A DNA stretch of 15,405 bases, taken from assembly GCA_027064085.1 (NCBI GenBank), contig JAMOQH010000057.1:1-15405 (forward strand). The letters run 5' to 3'. The DNA is from a bacterium. GTDB taxonomy: Bacteria; UBP6; JAFGXH01. Below the pieces are notes generated by a model. The model was not told where the DNA came from, ran no database searches, and saw only the letters and a list, made by a program, of their open reading frames with translations. A program made the translations under genes and the position numbers. Positions 1,857 to 15,404 of this stretch are shown piece after piece. The first letter of the stretch is position 1, and every line of letters starts with the position of its first letter.

Positions 1857-4016
1857 CTATTGTTTATTTAATTCATAAGAAGTTAAACCATCCCAATCTT
1901 TTGGACTTGCAGGCAAAAAATCCCCCTCTTTTTTAATTTTATTCTTATGAGTTCCTTTTTTATTACCAGGATAATAAGGAGCAGAACTATTCCAATGCTC
2001 AGGAGCCCACATCATTCCAGTATTTAAATAAGTAGGATTCGTAGACTTTATAATACCTGTATCACATCTTTTTGATGCACAAAATGAAGGAGTATCATAA
2101 GTAGAAAAAATAGCCCACCTGTAATCAAAACCACCCTTACCTACATCATAACGTCCCTGTGATGAAAAATACTTAAAACCAATTATCTGAATATTACTAC
2201 TTGATGGATAAGTATCATATTCATTACCATCAGCATCAAGAAAAGCTAAGAATGTTGTTGCATGACCAGTACCATTTGTTCTGTTAAGACCAACAAAACC
2301 ACCTGGCTTTAAATCTTCAAAAGGCATTGTTTCTCCCATTCCAAAATTCTTCAAAGCATCAGGAGTTCCAGAAGAATAATCATGATTTACCCATATATGT
2401 CCCTTTATATGACTACTATTTTGTATAGTCCAACTGTTAAGAGGCAGATAATCATAAACAGAATAGTCGCCCGTTTCTTCAGCATAAAGTTGCATTGCTG
2501 TTAAAACAACCTCCATTTGTGCAGACACACACATTGTCCTTGCTCCACCTGAACGGGTAATTATCCCATAATGTCCTTCTTCGTTTATATCACTATCTCC
2601 ATATTCAATATCATGAGTTAAATTAGCACTTGCATAACCAAGTAACTTGTAATTTGCATATAAATAATCAACAGCCTCTAAAATATAATAATTAAAATAC
2701 AAGCTATCATTATTACTACCAATAGGATTAACAACAATACTCAAATTATATTGCCCTTCCATAACATCACTACCATCAACATAACTATCCATAACAAGAT
2801 AGTAATCACCTGGCTCAAGCCTAGAATAAACCGAATAATTTCCCCTTTCTATTAAAAAACTATTATCTGTTGTATTCAGTGAAGAAATTAAATGTACATC
2901 AATATCAGTACCATCTGGCTCTGGATTTTCTATACTTGCAATAAACCTTGCAGGTTCTGTTAATTTAAAATGGTAAATATATTCATGCCCACCCTCATTT
3001 AATTCGTTAGGAGGGTAACTATCAAAAAATGAACTTTGAGCATTTTTTGTATCTCTTAAATCACTGTAGTTAAATGGTAAACTTAATGTTCCAAGTTCTA
3101 TTGGTTCATCAATAGTACCTGCATAATCAGGAGTGAATTCAACTGTTAAATTATAATTACCAGCTAATACTTCATTGTCGGAATTAACATAGGTATCCAT
3201 TACTATATAATAAACGCCCTGATTTAAAGTTGCCTCTACTTGATAATGCCCTCTTGAAATTAACTTAAGCGGAGTTATCGATTTTAACAAATGAATATCA
3301 ATATCTGTATTTTCTGGTTCTGGAAAATCAATATATGCTTTTACCTTTGTTGTTTTATCTATTTTAAATATATAATAATATTCAGGTCCACCTTCATTTA
3401 AAGTATTTGGTGGATAGTTATTTATTAATGAATATTGTGAATTTTGGGTATTCTGCTGATTTGTATAAGTTTGTGAAGTATCTATTATAAATGGGTGAAT
3501 CTGACTACCATCTTGCTCTTCACAAGCATCACCAATACCATTACTATCAGTATCTGCTTGTGTTGGATTAGCGATATCCTTACAATTATCAATATCATCA
3601 CTGACACCATCACTATCATTATCATTTTGGGTATCAATAGGTTTACATTCACCATTAACTTCATAATATCCCGCATCACATTTTAACTTACACTCTCCAT
3701 TAATATATTCATATCCAGCATCACATTTTAGAACACATTCACCTGAAATTTTCTCATAATTGTTATTACAATACCATAAGCAATCATATACATCAGGGAC
3801 ATATTTTTCTCCATTATATATTTGCTCTATTTTACCATCTTTATTTATATCTTCCCAGTGACTATTATTAGGTTTTTGATTTGGACAATTTATTATTTTT
3901 TTATCTCCCTTACAAATAGAATCATTGCAATCTTTAGAGGTTTTATTTTGTTCTGTACTACACGAAATAATAAAAATTGAGAATAATAAAAATATTATTT
4001 TTTTACGATAAAGCAT
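1857..4016 (-). CDS. Modular surface/periplasmic lipoprotein with EGF-like, TSP3 and two PPC-like domains and a C-terminal Cys-His hydrolase-like domain
   Basis: The protein has 719 residues. A lipoprotein signal peptide ends in the lipobox IIS-C19. Residues 30-125 are Cys-rich with repeated GYEYINGECKLKCDAG-type units. Residues 130-168 are a thrombospondin type-3 Ca-binding repeat (DNDSDGVSDDIDNC ... DTDSNGIGDAC). Two homologous beta-sandwich repeats follow (about 185-297 and 307-430), each with YPPN-LNEGG, TDID-HL and Y-(I/L)-VMD-YV signatures, resembling bacterial pre-peptidase C-terminal (PPC) domains. The last ~290 residues contain TMC496VSAQ and GTGH585ATTFLAFLD, the spacing expected of a papain/NlpC-like Cys-His pair, so a peptidase or amidase role is inferred. 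The start has a clear ribosome site (GGAG seven bases upstream) and lies inside the 3' end of the kinase gene (14-bp overlap), so the two are co-transcribed and translationally coupled. The C-terminal domain family is not recognised with certainty. Confidence 0.85.
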   Translation of the reverse strand: MLYRKKIIFLLFSIFIISCSTEQNKTSKDCNDSICKGDKKIINCPNQKPNNSHWEDINKDGKIEQIYNGEKYVPDVYDCLWYCNNNYEKISGECVLKCDAGYEYINGECKLKCDAGYYEVNGECKPIDTQNDNDSDGVSDDIDNCKDIANPTQADTDSNGIGDACEEQDGSQIHPFIIDTSQTYTNQQNTQNSQYSLINNYPPNTLNEGGPEYYYIFKIDKTTKVKAYIDFPEPENTDIDIHLLKSITPLKLISRGHYQVEATLNQGVYYIVMDTYVNSDNEVLAGNYNLTVEFTPDYAGTIDEPIELGTLSLPFNYSDLRDTKNAQSSFFDSYPPNELNEGGHEYIYHFKLTEPARFIASIENPEPDGTDIDVHLISSLNTTDNSFLIERGNYSVYSRLEPGDYYLVMDSYVDGSDVMEGQYNLSIVVNPIGSNNDSLYFNYYILEAVDYLYANYKLLGYASANLTHDIEYGDSDINEEGHYGIITRSGGARTMCVSAQMEVVLTAMQLYAEETGDYSVYDYLPLNSWTIQNSSHIKGHIWVNHDYSSGTPDALKNFGMGETMPFEDLKPGGFVGLNRTNGTGHATTFLAFLDADGNEYDTYPSSSNIQIIGFKYFSSQGRYDVGKGGFDYRWAIFSTYDTPSFCASKRCDTGIIKSTNPTYLNTGMMWAPEHWNSSAPYYPGNKKGTHKNKIKKEGDFLPASPKDWDGLTSYELNKQ

Positions 4017-10537: not shown

Positions 10538-11941
10538 ATGAGTTTCAGAGTTTTTATTTTACTTACTTTTATTGCTATTTCGGAAGTATTGTTTTCTGCA
10601 GGTTATACCTTACCTTTATTTGGCCCTAGAGATACTGCAAGAGGAGGAGCAAGTATGGTTAAATCTGATGATTTAACTGCAAACATTAATAACCCTGCCA
10701 ATATTATTAAATTAAAAGGAATTAATAGTTTCATAGGCTTAGCAGTAATAAACACTTCTGGTACTGCTGATTATTATGATAGAGATATAGAAAATGATGT
10801 TACTATGTATAAACCAATTTCTAATTCTCCTGACCCATTTTTCAATCCGACTATTGCCATTTCTGATAATTTTGGAGTAAAAAAATTTAATTTTTCACTA
10901 GCTTTTCATGGTCCTTATGCTCCTGATTATAACTACGACAAAAAATGTTCTAGAGGAGCACCAAGTTGCCCCAATAGATATTCTCTTTATGAATCAGATA
11001 TTACACTTGCTAATGCACAATTTACTATAGCTTATCAAATTCTAAAAAACTTATCTTTTGGAATTGGATTAAAATTAACTTATATAAATTTTAAATATAA
11101 TTTAGATTTAATAAATTCTAATGATAATGAATTAAGCTTATTAACGGGCCCTTCTAAAATAGGAGAAACAGATGCAAATTTAAAGTTTGATGTAACAGAC
11201 CCAATTAATTTTAACGCAATTTTGGGTTTAACTTATGAAATCAACAAATATCTTTCTATATCAGCAACATATCAAACCCCAATTTCTGTTAATGCAGACG
11301 GAACAATGGATACAAAAATTTACAAAGACTCAAAAGCATTAACAGTTAATAACACAAAAATAGAAGGTAATAAACTAAATGTAAAATTAGAATTACCTCA
11401 CCAATTTGGTTTAGGTTTTTTATTTGAAATCAAAAATACTTTTAATATAGAATTAGACTTTAACATGGAATTATGGTCTGTTCATGATAAAATCACAATA
11501 ACACCTAAAAATGTTTATGCAAAATATAAAGCAATTGGTATTGAAAAAAGTATAAAACTTAAAGCTATTTCTCAAAAAAAGAATTGGAAAAATACATATA
11601 ATATAAGTTTAGGTGGAGATATTATATTTTTAAATAATACTTTTATCTTATCACTTGGGGCATTTTATGAAACGGGGGCAATTCCTGATGAATATTTTGA
11701 TATTAGTATCGTTGATAGTGATAAATTAGGAGTAGGAATAGGCTTTAGCTATACTTGGAATTTTTTAACTTTTAATACATCATTTGCTTATGTAGATTTT
11801 TTACCAAGAGATATCACAAGTTCAGAAGTTCATCCAGGTAATGCATTGCAAAGTGATTATCCTAGTGATTTTATTGTTGGCAATGGTAAATTTGATACAG
11901 ATATACTTGTGTTTTCCACAGGATTTACTGCCAGATTCTAA
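10538..11941 (+). CDS. OmpP1/FadL/TodX-family outer-membrane beta-barrel transporter
   Basis: The protein has 467 residues. A signal peptide (MSFRVFILLTFIAISEVLFSA) is followed by GYTLPLFGPRDTARGGASM and then ANINNPANI. This matches the family's N-terminal hatch signature, in which the mature protein starts near a Gly-rich RGGA segment and an NPA motif. The rest is a run of alternating amphipathic strands (for example FGIGLKLTYINFKY, LSISATYQTPIS, HQFGLGFLFEI, LGVGIGFSYTW). The chain ends in a terminal Phe (GFTARF), the usual BAM recognition end. The predicted role is diffusion of hydrophobic compounds such as long-chain fatty acids across the outer membrane; the real substrate cannot be told. 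A possible disulfide loop (KKCSRGAPSCPNRY) sits near residues 131-144. Confidence 0.9.
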   Translation: MSFRVFILLTFIAISEVLFSAGYTLPLFGPRDTARGGASMVKSDDLTANINNPANIIKLKGINSFIGLAVINTSGTADYYDRDIENDVTMYKPISNSPDPFFNPTIAISDNFGVKKFNFSLAFHGPYAPDYNYDKKCSRGAPSCPNRYSLYESDITLANAQFTIAYQILKNLSFGIGLKLTYINFKYNLDLINSNDNELSLLTGPSKIGETDANLKFDVTDPINFNAILGLTYEINKYLSISATYQTPISVNADGTMDTKIYKDSKALTVNNTKIEGNKLNVKLELPHQFGLGFLFEIKNTFNIELDFNMELWSVHDKITITPKNVYAKYKAIGIEKSIKLKAISQKKNWKNTYNISLGGDIIFLNNTFILSLGAFYETGAIPDEYFDISIVDSDKLGVGIGFSYTWNFLTFNTSFAYVDFLPRDITSSEVHPGNALQSDYPSDFIVGNGKFDTDILVFSTGFTARF

Positions 11942-11959
11942 AATATTAATCTCTCTTAC

Positions 11960-11988
11960 TTGCACATTTACTTAATTCAAGCTATACT
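11960..11988 (+). promoter_or_regulatory. Strong predicted sigma70-type promoter for the leader and Rpn gene
   Basis: TTGCAC (11960-11965), a 17-base spacer and TATACT (11983-11988) lie 18 bases after the FadL-like gene's stop. The predicted start near 11995 gives a leader of about 115 bases before the Rpn ATG. Confidence 0.65.
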
Positions 11989-11998
11989 ATTAGTGTGA

Positions 11999-12107
11999 AG
12001 AACAAGGAGGGGGTTTTATGATAATAGTAACTATTGATTTGATTGCCTTGTCTAGCTCCTCCTTGGGAACAGGGATATTGTAACTTAAGATTTTAGAACA
12101 AGGAGGG
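11999..12107 (+). promoter_or_regulatory. Alternative-hairpin leader with duplicated Shine-Dalgarno and one anti-SD (putative translational attenuator)
   Basis: The 13-mer AGAACAAGGAGGG occurs at 11999-12011 and again at 12095-12107; each copy is the ribosome site of the start codon that follows it (12018 and 12110). Between them CCTCCTTG (12058-12065) is an exact complement of the CAAGGAGG in both copies. It can form a 10-bp stem with the first (12003-12012 with 12056-12065, one G-U) or an 8-9-bp stem with the second (12099-12107). The two structures are mutually exclusive. A ribosome held early on the leader frame would free the anti-SD to mask the Rpn SD; a ribosome passing the anti-SD would expose it. 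The pairing is seen in the sequence; the regulatory reading is inference. Confidence 0.6.
12018..12083 (+). CDS. 21-residue leader peptide upstream of the Rpn gene
   Basis: ATG at 12018 is preceded by AAGGAGGGGG with a four-base spacer, among the strongest ribosome sites in the window. It opens 21 codons to TAA at 12081-12083: MIIVTIDLIALSSSS, then LGTGIL. Codons 12-15 are four consecutive serines (TCT AGC TCC TCC) and overlap the anti-SD, so leader translation necessarily melts that pairing. The stop lies 26 bases before the Rpn ATG. It is too short for family assignment. It may act only in cis; a hydrophobic toxic peptide is possible but unsupported. Confidence 0.55.
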   Translation: MIIVTIDLIALSSSSLGTGIL

Positions 12108-12109
12108 CT

Positions 12110-13204
12110 ATGTATTTAGCGCCATTAAATTATAATAGATTTTTTAAAAAAGTCTTTGGCAAAAAAAGGATTGCAAAAGCATTTTTAGAAGATTTTTTAA
12201 ATATTAAAATAAAAAGAATAGAAATTTTAAATGATAAAAACTTTATAACAGATAAATCTCTTCCTGTTGAGTTTGACTATAGATGTGAACTTGATAATGG
12301 GGAGCAAATTATAATTGAAATGCAACAGTGGTATAAAACGGATATAATAAAAAGATTTTATTTGTATCATTCATTATCTACTTCACTACAATTAGAGAAA
12401 TTAGAAGAAAAGGTTATTTCTATTGATGTAGAAACAGGAAGTATTATCAAAGATAAACTTTATAACGATTTAAAACCTAGTATTACTCTTATTTGGATGG
12501 TTGATGATAACTTAGGTTTCAAAGAAGAAGATTTTATTGTATTTAAAATGGGAGTTGAAGAATTAGATGATTTTATAAAAGACGATAAATTATGGAATGA
12601 TCCTATTGAAAATATACTTAAAGAAAGAAAAAGAATTTTAGAGCTTAAAAACAACAATACCAAAGATTTGGGATTTTTATCTAAAAATAAATTAATTTTT
12701 ATATTTCAAAAAAATATAGTTAAGAACTTAAAAAATAAAAAGAATAAGAATTCAGGAGAATATCCTAAATGGTTTGATTTTGCTAAAAAAACTAAAAGTA
12801 AAAAAAATAAAAAGTCAGATTTTACAGAATACAAGAATGACAAATTATTTATCGATATTATGAATATGCTTCTAAAAGATAGATTAACCCAAGATGAAAT
12901 TAAATATATCACGAAAGAAGAGGAGTTAAAAGAAGCTTATATTAAATATACATCTGTTATACTTGAAGCTAAAAAAGAAGCTCAAGAAGAAAAGAGAAAA
13001 GCTCAAGAAGAAAAGAGAAAAGCTCAGGAAGAAAAGAGAAAAGCTGATGAGTTTCAGAAAAAATTAGAAGAGGAAAGAAAAAAAACAAAAGAACAAATGA
13101 AGGAAGCCGTTTTAGATTTATTTAAAATGGGTTTAACAAAAGAACAAATTGCAAATTCTTTAAAGTTATCTATTAAGGAAATAGAAAAGATTATTAAAAA
13201 TTAG
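12110..13204 (+). CDS. Rpn-family recombination-promoting nuclease / PD-(D/E)XK transposase-like protein
   Basis: The protein has 364 residues and is complete. The N-terminal half is the PDDEXK_2/Rpn-type nuclease core. It has a DNA-facing N-terminus (NRFFKKVFGKK), then catalytic D56 in VEFDYRCELDNGE and E70-x-Q72 in IIIEMQQ (the E-x-Q variant normal for this family), then KRFYLYHSLSTS with a conserved Tyr. A lysine-rich linker (about 205-237) leads to a charged coiled coil with three AQEEKRK repeats (291-311) and a C-terminal HTH-like tail (KMGLTKEQIANSLKLSIKEIEKII). Characterised E. coli Rpn proteins are DNA nucleases that raise RecA-independent recombination. It starts at ATG 12110 with AAGGAGGG. 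Related tails occur as fragments at 1-260 and 1630-1773, so the family is multicopy here. Expression is probably limited by the leader structure. Confidence 0.88.
   Translation: MYLAPLNYNRFFKKVFGKKRIAKAFLEDFLNIKIKRIEILNDKNFITDKSLPVEFDYRCELDNGEQIIIEMQQWYKTDIIKRFYLYHSLSTSLQLEKLEEKVISIDVETGSIIKDKLYNDLKPSITLIWMVDDNLGFKEEDFIVFKMGVEELDDFIKDDKLWNDPIENILKERKRILELKNNNTKDLGFLSKNKLIFIFQKNIVKNLKNKKNKNSGEYPKWFDFAKKTKSKKNKKSDFTEYKNDKLFIDIMNMLLKDRLTQDEIKYITKEEELKEAYIKYTSVILEAKKEAQEEKRKAQEEKRKAQEEKRKADEFQKKLEEERKKTKEQMKEAVLDLFKMGLTKEQIANSLKLSIKEIEKIIKN
12980..13042 (+). repeat. 21-bp tandem repeat, 3 copies, in the Rpn coiled coil
   Basis: The unit gctcaagaagaaaagagaaa+a is repeated at 12980-13000, 13001-13021 and 13022-13042. 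The third copy has one change (caa to cag). It encodes three AQEEKRK heptads, giving a continuous coil. The near-identity at DNA level suggests recent in-frame expansion. Confidence 0.9.
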
Positions 13205-13406: not shown

Positions 13407-15404
13407 ATGAAAATTTTAATGTTAATATTTTTAGTAATAACAATACCATTATTTTCTAATGAATATAAAGAGTATGTCATAAAATTTAAAAACTACAATA
13501 CTAACATTATAGAAAGATATAAAAAAGATTATGATATGAAAAAATATTTTTCTCTTAGCAATGAAAAACTCCTTGAGCTAAAATTAAGTGGAGAAAAGTT
13601 AAGTGGAAATAAGTTAAATGATTTAAGAACATATTTTCTAACTAATTTAACTCAGCTGGAGTATAGAAATATAAAAAAAGATAAAAACATCTCAATAAGT
13701 TATGAAAATATCAAAAATATACCTAGACCTATAGCAGAAGATATTGCTCCTGTAACAAGTAACTGGGTAAATAGCCAAGGCTATATTGATGATTTTGAGC
13801 ATAATAGTGGTCTAAATGCTAAATATGGATGGCAATTTGTTGGTGGAAAAGGAAAAAATGTAACAGTTGTTGACATTGAAGGAGGTTGGACTACCGACCA
13901 TGAAGATTTAGGTATAGAAGATGCAAATTTATACGATGAAAACGGTATTAATTTAACAGGAACCCCAAAAGATGGAGAAGAACATGATAATAATCATGGA
14001 ACTTCTGTTTTAGGTGAAATAGCCTCTGTTGATAATGCTTATGGTACAACGGGTATTGCCCACAAAGCAAATATAAAAGTTTTAAATGATTATTCTAAAG
14101 AATATGGTTATAGCACTGCAGATGCAATTTTGCGTGGTATTTCAGTACTAGATATTGGTAGTGTTATTTTATTAGAATCTCAAAAAGGTGGACCTAATTA
14201 TCATTATGATGAAAATAATCCCAATAGTCAATTTGGTTTAGTACCTGACGAATGGTATCAAGCAGAATTTGATGCTATTAAAACAGCAACTTCTAATGGC
14301 TTTATAATTATTGAAGCTGGTGCAAATGGTGAACAAAACCTAGATGACCCTATTTACAGTACTTGCAATGGTAATAACAACACATTTTGGGGAGATAAAA
14401 GTGGTACTCAACCTTGTTTTGATATTAATACAAGAGATAGTGGAGCAATTATTGTTGGTGCAGGAAATCCTCCAAGTGGAAATTATGGTATTCCAAGGGA
14501 AAAAATGTATTATACCTCTTATGGTAAAAGAGTTGATGTTCAGGCATGGGGAATGGAAATATACACTACAGGTTATGGAGATGTTTTTTACCCTAATAAT
14601 GATGATAGACAAGCTTATACTAAGCAATTTGGTGGAACTAGTGGAGCAAGCCCTATGATTACAGGTATTGCCGCAGTATTGCAAAGCCGATATAAAGAAA
14701 AAAATAATGGCCAAACGCTAAGCTCTATTCAAATAAGAGAAATTTTAAAAAATCCAAATAATTCAAGGCCCCAAAATGGAGATGAAACTACAGAACACAT
14801 AGGACCACAACCAGATATAGAATTAATTTTTAGAAATTACTTAAATGATGTATATTCTTGTAACCCTAGATGTAATGATTGGGAATATTGTGAGCAAGAT
14901 AATGCTATTTGTAAAGTTCAAGATAATAGATGTAATAAAAATGAAGATTGTAATAGTGAATTAGATTGTAAAATAACTACTCATACTTGCGTTGACCCCT
15001 GTACTTTATTAGAATGTAAAGATTGGGAAAACTGTAATGCTCAAGCAAGAAAATGTGAATTAAAAACAGGAATGTGTAATAATAAAAGTGATTGCGAAGA
15101 AGAAGAATACTGTAATCCAGTAACTAATCAATGTATAGATTATTGTAAAAACTTAACATGCCAAGAAAACAGTACTTGTACTAGAACAGAAGATAAATCT
15201 TATGCAGAATGTGTTTGTGATACTCATTATTTAATAAATGATAATGGAATTTGTGAATATGTTGCACCTAAACCAGTTAAAAAGCCTAAAGATGATGATA
15301 GCTGTTCGTTTTCAAGTAATGGGAGTTATTTAAATTTAATATTTATTATGTTTTTTCTTTTTTTACTTAGTAAAAAAAGCTATAATTTAAAAAATAATTC
15401 TTAA
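13407..15404 (+). CDS. Secreted subtilisin-like (S8) serine protease with Cys-rich EGF-like tail and C-terminal sorting-type segment
   Basis: The true start is ATG 13407 with GGGAGGA five bases before it. An in-frame TTG at 13395 overlaps the SD and is rejected. The protein has 665 residues. A signal peptide (MKILMLIFLVITIPLFS) is followed by a propeptide-like region (about 20-110, KEYVIKFKN start). The S8 domain has catalytic D156 (VTVVDIEGGWTTDHEDL), H197 (EHDNNHGTSVLGEIAS), oxyanion N307 (EAGANGEQN) and S412 (FGGTSGASPMITG). Residues 485-618 hold about 22 Cys in EGF-like repeats (C-x-DWE-C, NKNEDCNSELDC). The end is a Lys/Pro linker, DDDSCS (C633), a hydrophobic helix LNLIFIMFFLFLL and a basic tail, resembling MYXO-CTERM-type tripartite sorting signals. 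It is thus likely surface-anchored or released after processing. Confidence 0.92.
   Translation: MKILMLIFLVITIPLFSNEYKEYVIKFKNYNTNIIERYKKDYDMKKYFSLSNEKLLELKLSGEKLSGNKLNDLRTYFLTNLTQLEYRNIKKDKNISISYENIKNIPRPIAEDIAPVTSNWVNSQGYIDDFEHNSGLNAKYGWQFVGGKGKNVTVVDIEGGWTTDHEDLGIEDANLYDENGINLTGTPKDGEEHDNNHGTSVLGEIASVDNAYGTTGIAHKANIKVLNDYSKEYGYSTADAILRGISVLDIGSVILLESQKGGPNYHYDENNPNSQFGLVPDEWYQAEFDAIKTATSNGFIIIEAGANGEQNLDDPIYSTCNGNNNTFWGDKSGTQPCFDINTRDSGAIIVGAGNPPSGNYGIPREKMYYTSYGKRVDVQAWGMEIYTTGYGDVFYPNNDDRQAYTKQFGGTSGASPMITGIAAVLQSRYKEKNNGQTLSSIQIREILKNPNNSRPQNGDETTEHIGPQPDIELIFRNYLNDVYSCNPRCNDWEYCEQDNAICKVQDNRCNKNEDCNSELDCKITTHTCVDPCTLLECKDWENCNAQARKCELKTGMCNNKSDCEEEEYCNPVTNQCIDYCKNLTCQENSTCTRTEDKSYAECVCDTHYLINDNGICEYVAPKPVKKPKDDDSCSFSSNGSYLNLIFIMFFLFLLSKKSYNLKNNS

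Follow-up and report, generated by a model that had tools for sequence, protein, structure and literature searches.

A short leader frame and a Shine-Dalgarno-sequestering hairpin form a candidate translational lock in front of an Rpn-type gene

The window, by which we mean the whole 15,405-nucleotide stretch of DNA analysed, carries on its plus strand an Rpn-type gene (12110..13204) encoding a protein of 364 residues. Residues 12-106 match the PDDEXK_2 family PF12784 (E 8.3e-10; 39.2 bits against a cut-off of 27.4), with the match covering only the N-terminal half of the profile, and the NCBIfam model TIGR01784 scores 34.9 bits, under its cut-off of 52.1 and too low to place the protein in that subfamily. 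The C-terminal part is coiled-coil-like, with 7-residue repeats. RpnL/RpnS likewise combine a PDDEXK nuclease domain with a repeat-bearing, variable C-terminal part (PMC10327210), and family membership suggests that the window protein has nuclease activity and is toxic. About a dozen PF12784 matches from at least two subfamilies occur in the genome, several of them cut at contig ends (contigs C157, C30, C7, C110, C188, C100, C180, C96, C52 and others), and some of these proteins have their C-terminal tails in common with the window protein. Near the other end of the window, the minus strand holds two fragments of such Rpn tails (e.g. MGLTKEQVFISLKLSVKEVEQIIND), at 18-203 and 1642-1749, that lack the nuclease domain. 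An Rpn pseudogene is present on the minus strand of C69 (~13573-13605), where a deletion fuses a 5' leader (GATTTTAGAACAA) to the C-terminal third of rpn. Elsewhere in the window are a sorted-surface-protein-like subtilase (PF00082; 13395-15404), which has cysteine-rich modules and, at its C-terminus, a hydrophobic stretch plus KK, and a protein of 719 residues that looks secreted and matches a thrombospondin type 3 repeat (1857-4016, minus strand).

In front of rpn, the 13-mer AGAACAAGGAGGG is present twice on the plus strand. The first copy, SD1 (11999..12011), is the putative ribosome site of a leader frame of 21 codons (MIIVTIDLIALSSSSLGTGIL*; 12018..12083, with ATG at 12018 and TAA at 12081-12083) and lies ~6-7 nt from its ATG, while the second, SD2 (12095..12107), is the rpn ribosome site and lies just 2-3 nt from the rpn ATG. 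Within the leader frame, CTCCTCCTTG at 12056-12065 is complementary to both SDs, and CCTCCTTG at 12058-12065 is the exact complement of the eight bases CAAGGAGG found in both 13-mers. Ser codons 12-15 (TCT AGC TCC TCC, 12051-12062) overlie this anti-SD because the anti-SD sequence itself requires them; they are partly rare, with TCC and AGC used 2.6 and 5.1 times per thousand codons. The two 13-mers, the 21-codon frame, the anti-SD and the four Ser codons all lie at the positions claimed in the original prediction. At this base composition, chance would place ~1.5e-4 exact copies of CCTCCTTG in every 100 nt. Genome background was counted by pattern searches: across 3.65 Mb, CTCCTTG-N12-42-CAAGGAG was confined to the window locus and C181/C15, both before rpn, and its backward control gave 0 matches in the whole genome.

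Transcription of the leader would start from a candidate upstream promoter pair, TGCACA-16 nt-TATACT (11961..11988, plus strand), which can also be read with a -35 of TTGCAC from 11960 and a 17-nt spacer. Both readings are consensus matches only, in a scan that found 2 promoter-like sites versus 1.8 expected. TTGCA..TATAAT-like stretches also occur 5' of the leader or of rpn in C8, C181, C144 and C157. No Rfam 15 family matched the leader at its gathering score; the only match below it was L17DE, at 22.9 bits versus 37.

In the predicted fold, which we call hairpin B, the left arm TAGC-T-CCTCCTTG (12053..12065) pairs with the right arm CAAGGAGG-GCTA (12099..12110), which lies over SD2 and the A of the rpn start codon, where the hairpin ends. 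The pairing with SD2 is extended by UAGC/GCUA across one bulged base to twelve pairs in total, and the 33-nt loop (12066..12098) contains the leader stop codon. The mean pairing probability of hairpin B is 0.83 in the window, 0.92 in C181 and 0.95 in C8, the C8 leader having been joined to the C15 tail for folding only. Hairpin A, in which the anti-SD pairs with SD1, is a minor state in the same three folds (0.12, 0.08 and 0.05). The fold thus bears out the proposal that the rpn SD is sequestered by a left arm inside the leader frame; the further proposal of mutually exclusive hairpins holds as to exclusivity but not as to equal competition, since hairpin B dominates. The probability of a fully open rpn SD is 2e-3 in the window, 4e-4 in C181 and 2e-4 in C8/C15, compared with 0.13 in the leaderless paralogue C144 (<=0.002 in all leader copies). 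By this modelling, the default fold would close the rpn site and leave SD1 partly accessible. The fold of the whole 141-nt leader is not unusually stable (z -0.76 versus shuffles), a value that is uninformative. A transcription terminator or attenuator was rejected, with no terminator-like site and no U-run 3' of the hairpin.

The genome is a 195-contig assembly of 3.65 Mb, and all known copies of the leader lie within it: two complete rpn loci, one truncated copy and one degenerate copy. The second complete locus spans C181 and C15, which were counted as one because the contig ends overlap exactly by 127 bases. In C8, the leader frame reaches the contig end and the next gene is unassembled. 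The leader peptides are MIIVTIDLIALSSSSLGTGIL in the window, MITVTIVLIALSSSSLGTGLL* in C181 and MITVTIVFIALSSSSLGMGLL in C8, where the contig ends. Homologous sequence in C181 and C8 starts at 11999 of the window. C181 has both hairpin arms unaltered, and C8 the left arm, so that the leader frame and anti-SD are conserved in two further copies within one genome. Leader identity between the C181 copy and the window is 89% overall and 86% at third codon positions; the rpn genes behind are less alike, at 73% overall, 59% at third positions and 63% at third positions of codons 1-30. This better conservation of the leader points to a constraint at the nucleotide level, judging from the sequence comparison; gene conversion ending near the ATG could instead account for it. 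A 36-nt rpn-leader piece (GATATTGTAACTAAAGATTTTAGAACAAGGAGGG and neighbours) lies on either side of the leader frame in C181, and C144 has the promoter-like stretch and TTTTAGAATAAGGAGGG directly before its leaderless rpn. From these two observations, a duplication inside the rpn 5' leader is the probable source of the leader frame.

A CRISPR array with Rfam RF01315 repeats holds the fourth copy (C39:1464-1549) at its distal end. This copy aligns gap-free to window positions 12027-12110 and is without the leader start, AAGGAGG and an rpn gene behind it. Its loop is 33 nt, as in the window and C181, with the 5' two thirds variable. Upstream of the hairpin, its 5' end matches at 16 of 20 nt, which has a chance P of ~7e-6 at that register and argues that the copy is homologous. 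All 12 pairs are retained, two of them with both bases replaced (CG to UA and CG to GC); the compensatory changes that had been sought in related genomes are thus seen in a copy from the same genome. The covariation shuffle control is weak with three sequences, as 51 of 500 shuffles reach the value, and the two compensated pairs are adjacent and may reflect a single template-switch event in a quasi-palindrome. A plain DNA operator, comprising two direct and one inverted CAAGGAGG, is disfavoured because the C39 copy alters the motif yet retains the pairing. The same array (C39, L062) also contains an 80-nt hairpin-forming element at 1003-1082, 1282-1361 and 1559-1638, which three times splits the CRISPR repeats between GAGGAA and TTGAAAC. 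This element was not found elsewhere in its own genome or in the two relatives searched.

Contrary to the expectation that Rpn homologues of related genomes would share the leader, it was not found in two genomes of the same family, whose rpn homologues (54-72% identity) have ordinary leaders, or in about ten Bacteroidota rpn homologues, which also have ordinary leaders. The same is true of the rpn paralogues C144, C157 and C30 in its own genome. In C157, C30 and the Bacteroidota homologues, SD complements were limited to chance, A+T-rich matches. A DNA search of 61 genomes gave, outside its own genome, matches to the rpn start only, all leaderless, and a covariance model run against 28 genomes of the phylum found no convincing copy outside its own genome; matches in G001 and G002 (E 0.04-0.06) were rejected because they lie inside an apparent dehydrogenase coding frame. 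Phages and plasmids gave no DNA match. Viral contigs had 77 exact pattern matches, all without the partner arm, and no rpn relatives were found among viral contigs or plasmids. Absence from the relatives searched indicates that the feature, read as a translational lock, is species- or genus-level rather than a conserved Rpn attenuator, as far as these comparisons reach.

We simulated the effect of leader translation with the ribosome as a barrier extending 15 nt to each side. A ribosome at codons 1-9 of the leader keeps the rpn SD shut; in the window, SD2 is fully open with a probability of 2e-6 to 2e-4 for positions at codons 1-7, compared with 6e-3 to 1.6e-2 at codons 10-22, up to the stop. 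C181 shows the same opening step. With hairpin A forced, SD2 opens to 1.3e-2 in the window and 5e-3 in C181. Even without the left arm, SD2 is predicted to be fully open only ~1% of the time, since other stretches near the rpn start pair with it as well, which limits the modelled switch in the window to ~8-fold at most from the free state. These models predict more rpn translation when the leader is translated, and the rare TCC and AGC codons would prolong the open state.

By a narrow balance, we regard it as probable that the 110 nt 5' of rpn act as a translational lock, opened by leader translation past codon 10. On the free mRNA, 12053-12065 would pair with the rpn ribosome site and start at 12099-12110, and rpn would hardly be translated. 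SD1 would stay partly accessible, allowing a ribosome to start at 12018. On reaching about codon 10, this ribosome would strip the left arm or cover it until the leader stop, freeing SD2 for a second ribosome. Behind the leader ribosome, the left arm may pair with SD1, which would delay re-closing and shut the leader. Such ribosome-dependent opening of SD2 would couple Rpn synthesis to leader translation. The predicted outcome is that a potentially toxic nuclease is made at a low level and in bursts, in line with evidence that some Rpn proteins are toxic nucleases whose activity is kept under control (PMC10327210), and Rpn output could be adjusted by whatever alters leader initiation or elongation. 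All of the evidence is computational and comes from one assembly with contig breaks at repeats. C144 and other rpn paralogues manage without the leader, which speaks against the lock.

The original prediction compared the leader to an erm/cat-type attenuator, in which a ribosome stalled by the Ser codons or the nascent peptide would hold hairpin B open and induce rpn. The predicted anatomy matches in part: as in erm (PMC5118997), there is a leader frame with its own SD, a left arm within that frame (here at codons 12-16, with rare TCC and AGC codons) and a stem-loop over the main SD, and the simulation predicts that SD2 opens when a ribosome is held at codons 10-22. The comparison fails with respect to the resistance gene, replaced here by a PDDEXK_2 nuclease gene, and to presence in the relatives searched; moreover, the two SDs are identical copies, so one anti-SD can serve both, unlike in erm/cat systems. 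This mechanism also needs a stall and an inducer, and no inducer or stall motif is known. Conservation of the Ser codons is no evidence for the peptide because the anti-SD dictates them. Since, in the simulation, any ribosome at codon 10 or beyond opens SD2, plain coupling suffices without a stall and accounts for the identical anatomy. We therefore think stall-based induction quite unlikely, and the lock coupled to the upstream frame is the better and most economical reading. It is unlikely, if somewhat less so, that the arrangement is a by-product of tandem duplication, with a copied SD and a fortuitous mini-frame and complement that spread with the rpn paralogues and have no regulatory role. 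The 36-nt piece flanking the C181 leader frame on both sides, the shared ancestry of the paralogues and the absence of the leader elsewhere are all compatible with such an origin. However, the leader outconserves the rpn codons behind it, its exact complement is improbable by chance, and the arms are unchanged between the window and C181 (the left arm in C8 as well) and kept in C39 through both-sided changes.

The C39 copy raises the question of whether the hairpin acts as DNA, either as an insertable mini-element or as a recombination site, perhaps used by Rpn, with any effect on translation being secondary. Here an intact hairpin lies in a CRISPR array, with rpn, AAGGAGG and a leader start all missing, and it adjoins repeats split by another 80-nt hairpin element; in addition, a role in promoting recombination has been described for E. 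coli Rpn proteins (PMC5350276). However, there is a single non-rpn copy, and a target duplication or empty site is not in evidence. The right arm in all rpn copies is a perfect SD, correctly placed for rpn, and it belongs to that gene because TTTTAGAATAAGGAGGG also precedes the leaderless rpn of C144. Of the readings considered, we give this one the least credence. A combined scenario is very unlikely in our estimation: a small insertable hairpin, also present in the CRISPR array, might have been captured before rpn as a lock (a mobile hairpin turned defence-gene switch), or Rpn might recognise the hairpin and control its own mRNA or locus.

Returning to the coupled lock, SD sequestration combined with coupling to an upstream frame is an established solution for toxin mRNAs. 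Initiation of hok at an inaccessible SD relies on coupling with mok translation (PMC11228461), and the simulation is compatible with a dependence of this kind. As in hok/mok, a stem-loop closes the SD of a toxin-type gene, and ribosomes translating a small frame upstream would open it (PMC11228461). Unlike in hok/mok, the leader frame ends 26 nt before rpn, with no overlap, and the product is a large nuclease rather than a small membrane toxin. No antisense RNA was found, with no minus-strand site in 11900-12300 by a sigma-70-type scan. The putative upstream frame of timP is not needed (PMC11228461), and trusting leader anatomy alone therefore calls for caution.

Elsewhere, the control of RpnL toxicity falls to the intragenic antitoxin RpnS, a small protein whose translation begins within the gene; the accessible part of that report (PMC10327210) mentions no leader control for RpnL/RpnS, in contrast to the control proposed here. 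A simple scan, which misses weak sites, found no in-frame internal ATG, GTG or TTG after a GGAG/GAGG/AGGA-type site in the window rpn. The RpnL/RpnS authors noted unexplained expression differences that suggest additional regulation (PMC10327210). No translational lock on an Rpn gene was found in the literature searched, of which coverage was partial. Rpn nucleases are widespread phage-defence toxins, and the restraint of their synthesis is poorly understood beyond the intragenic antitoxin. Putatively locked rpn copies beside unlocked paralogues in one genome would offer a natural comparison for translational gating of such nucleases.
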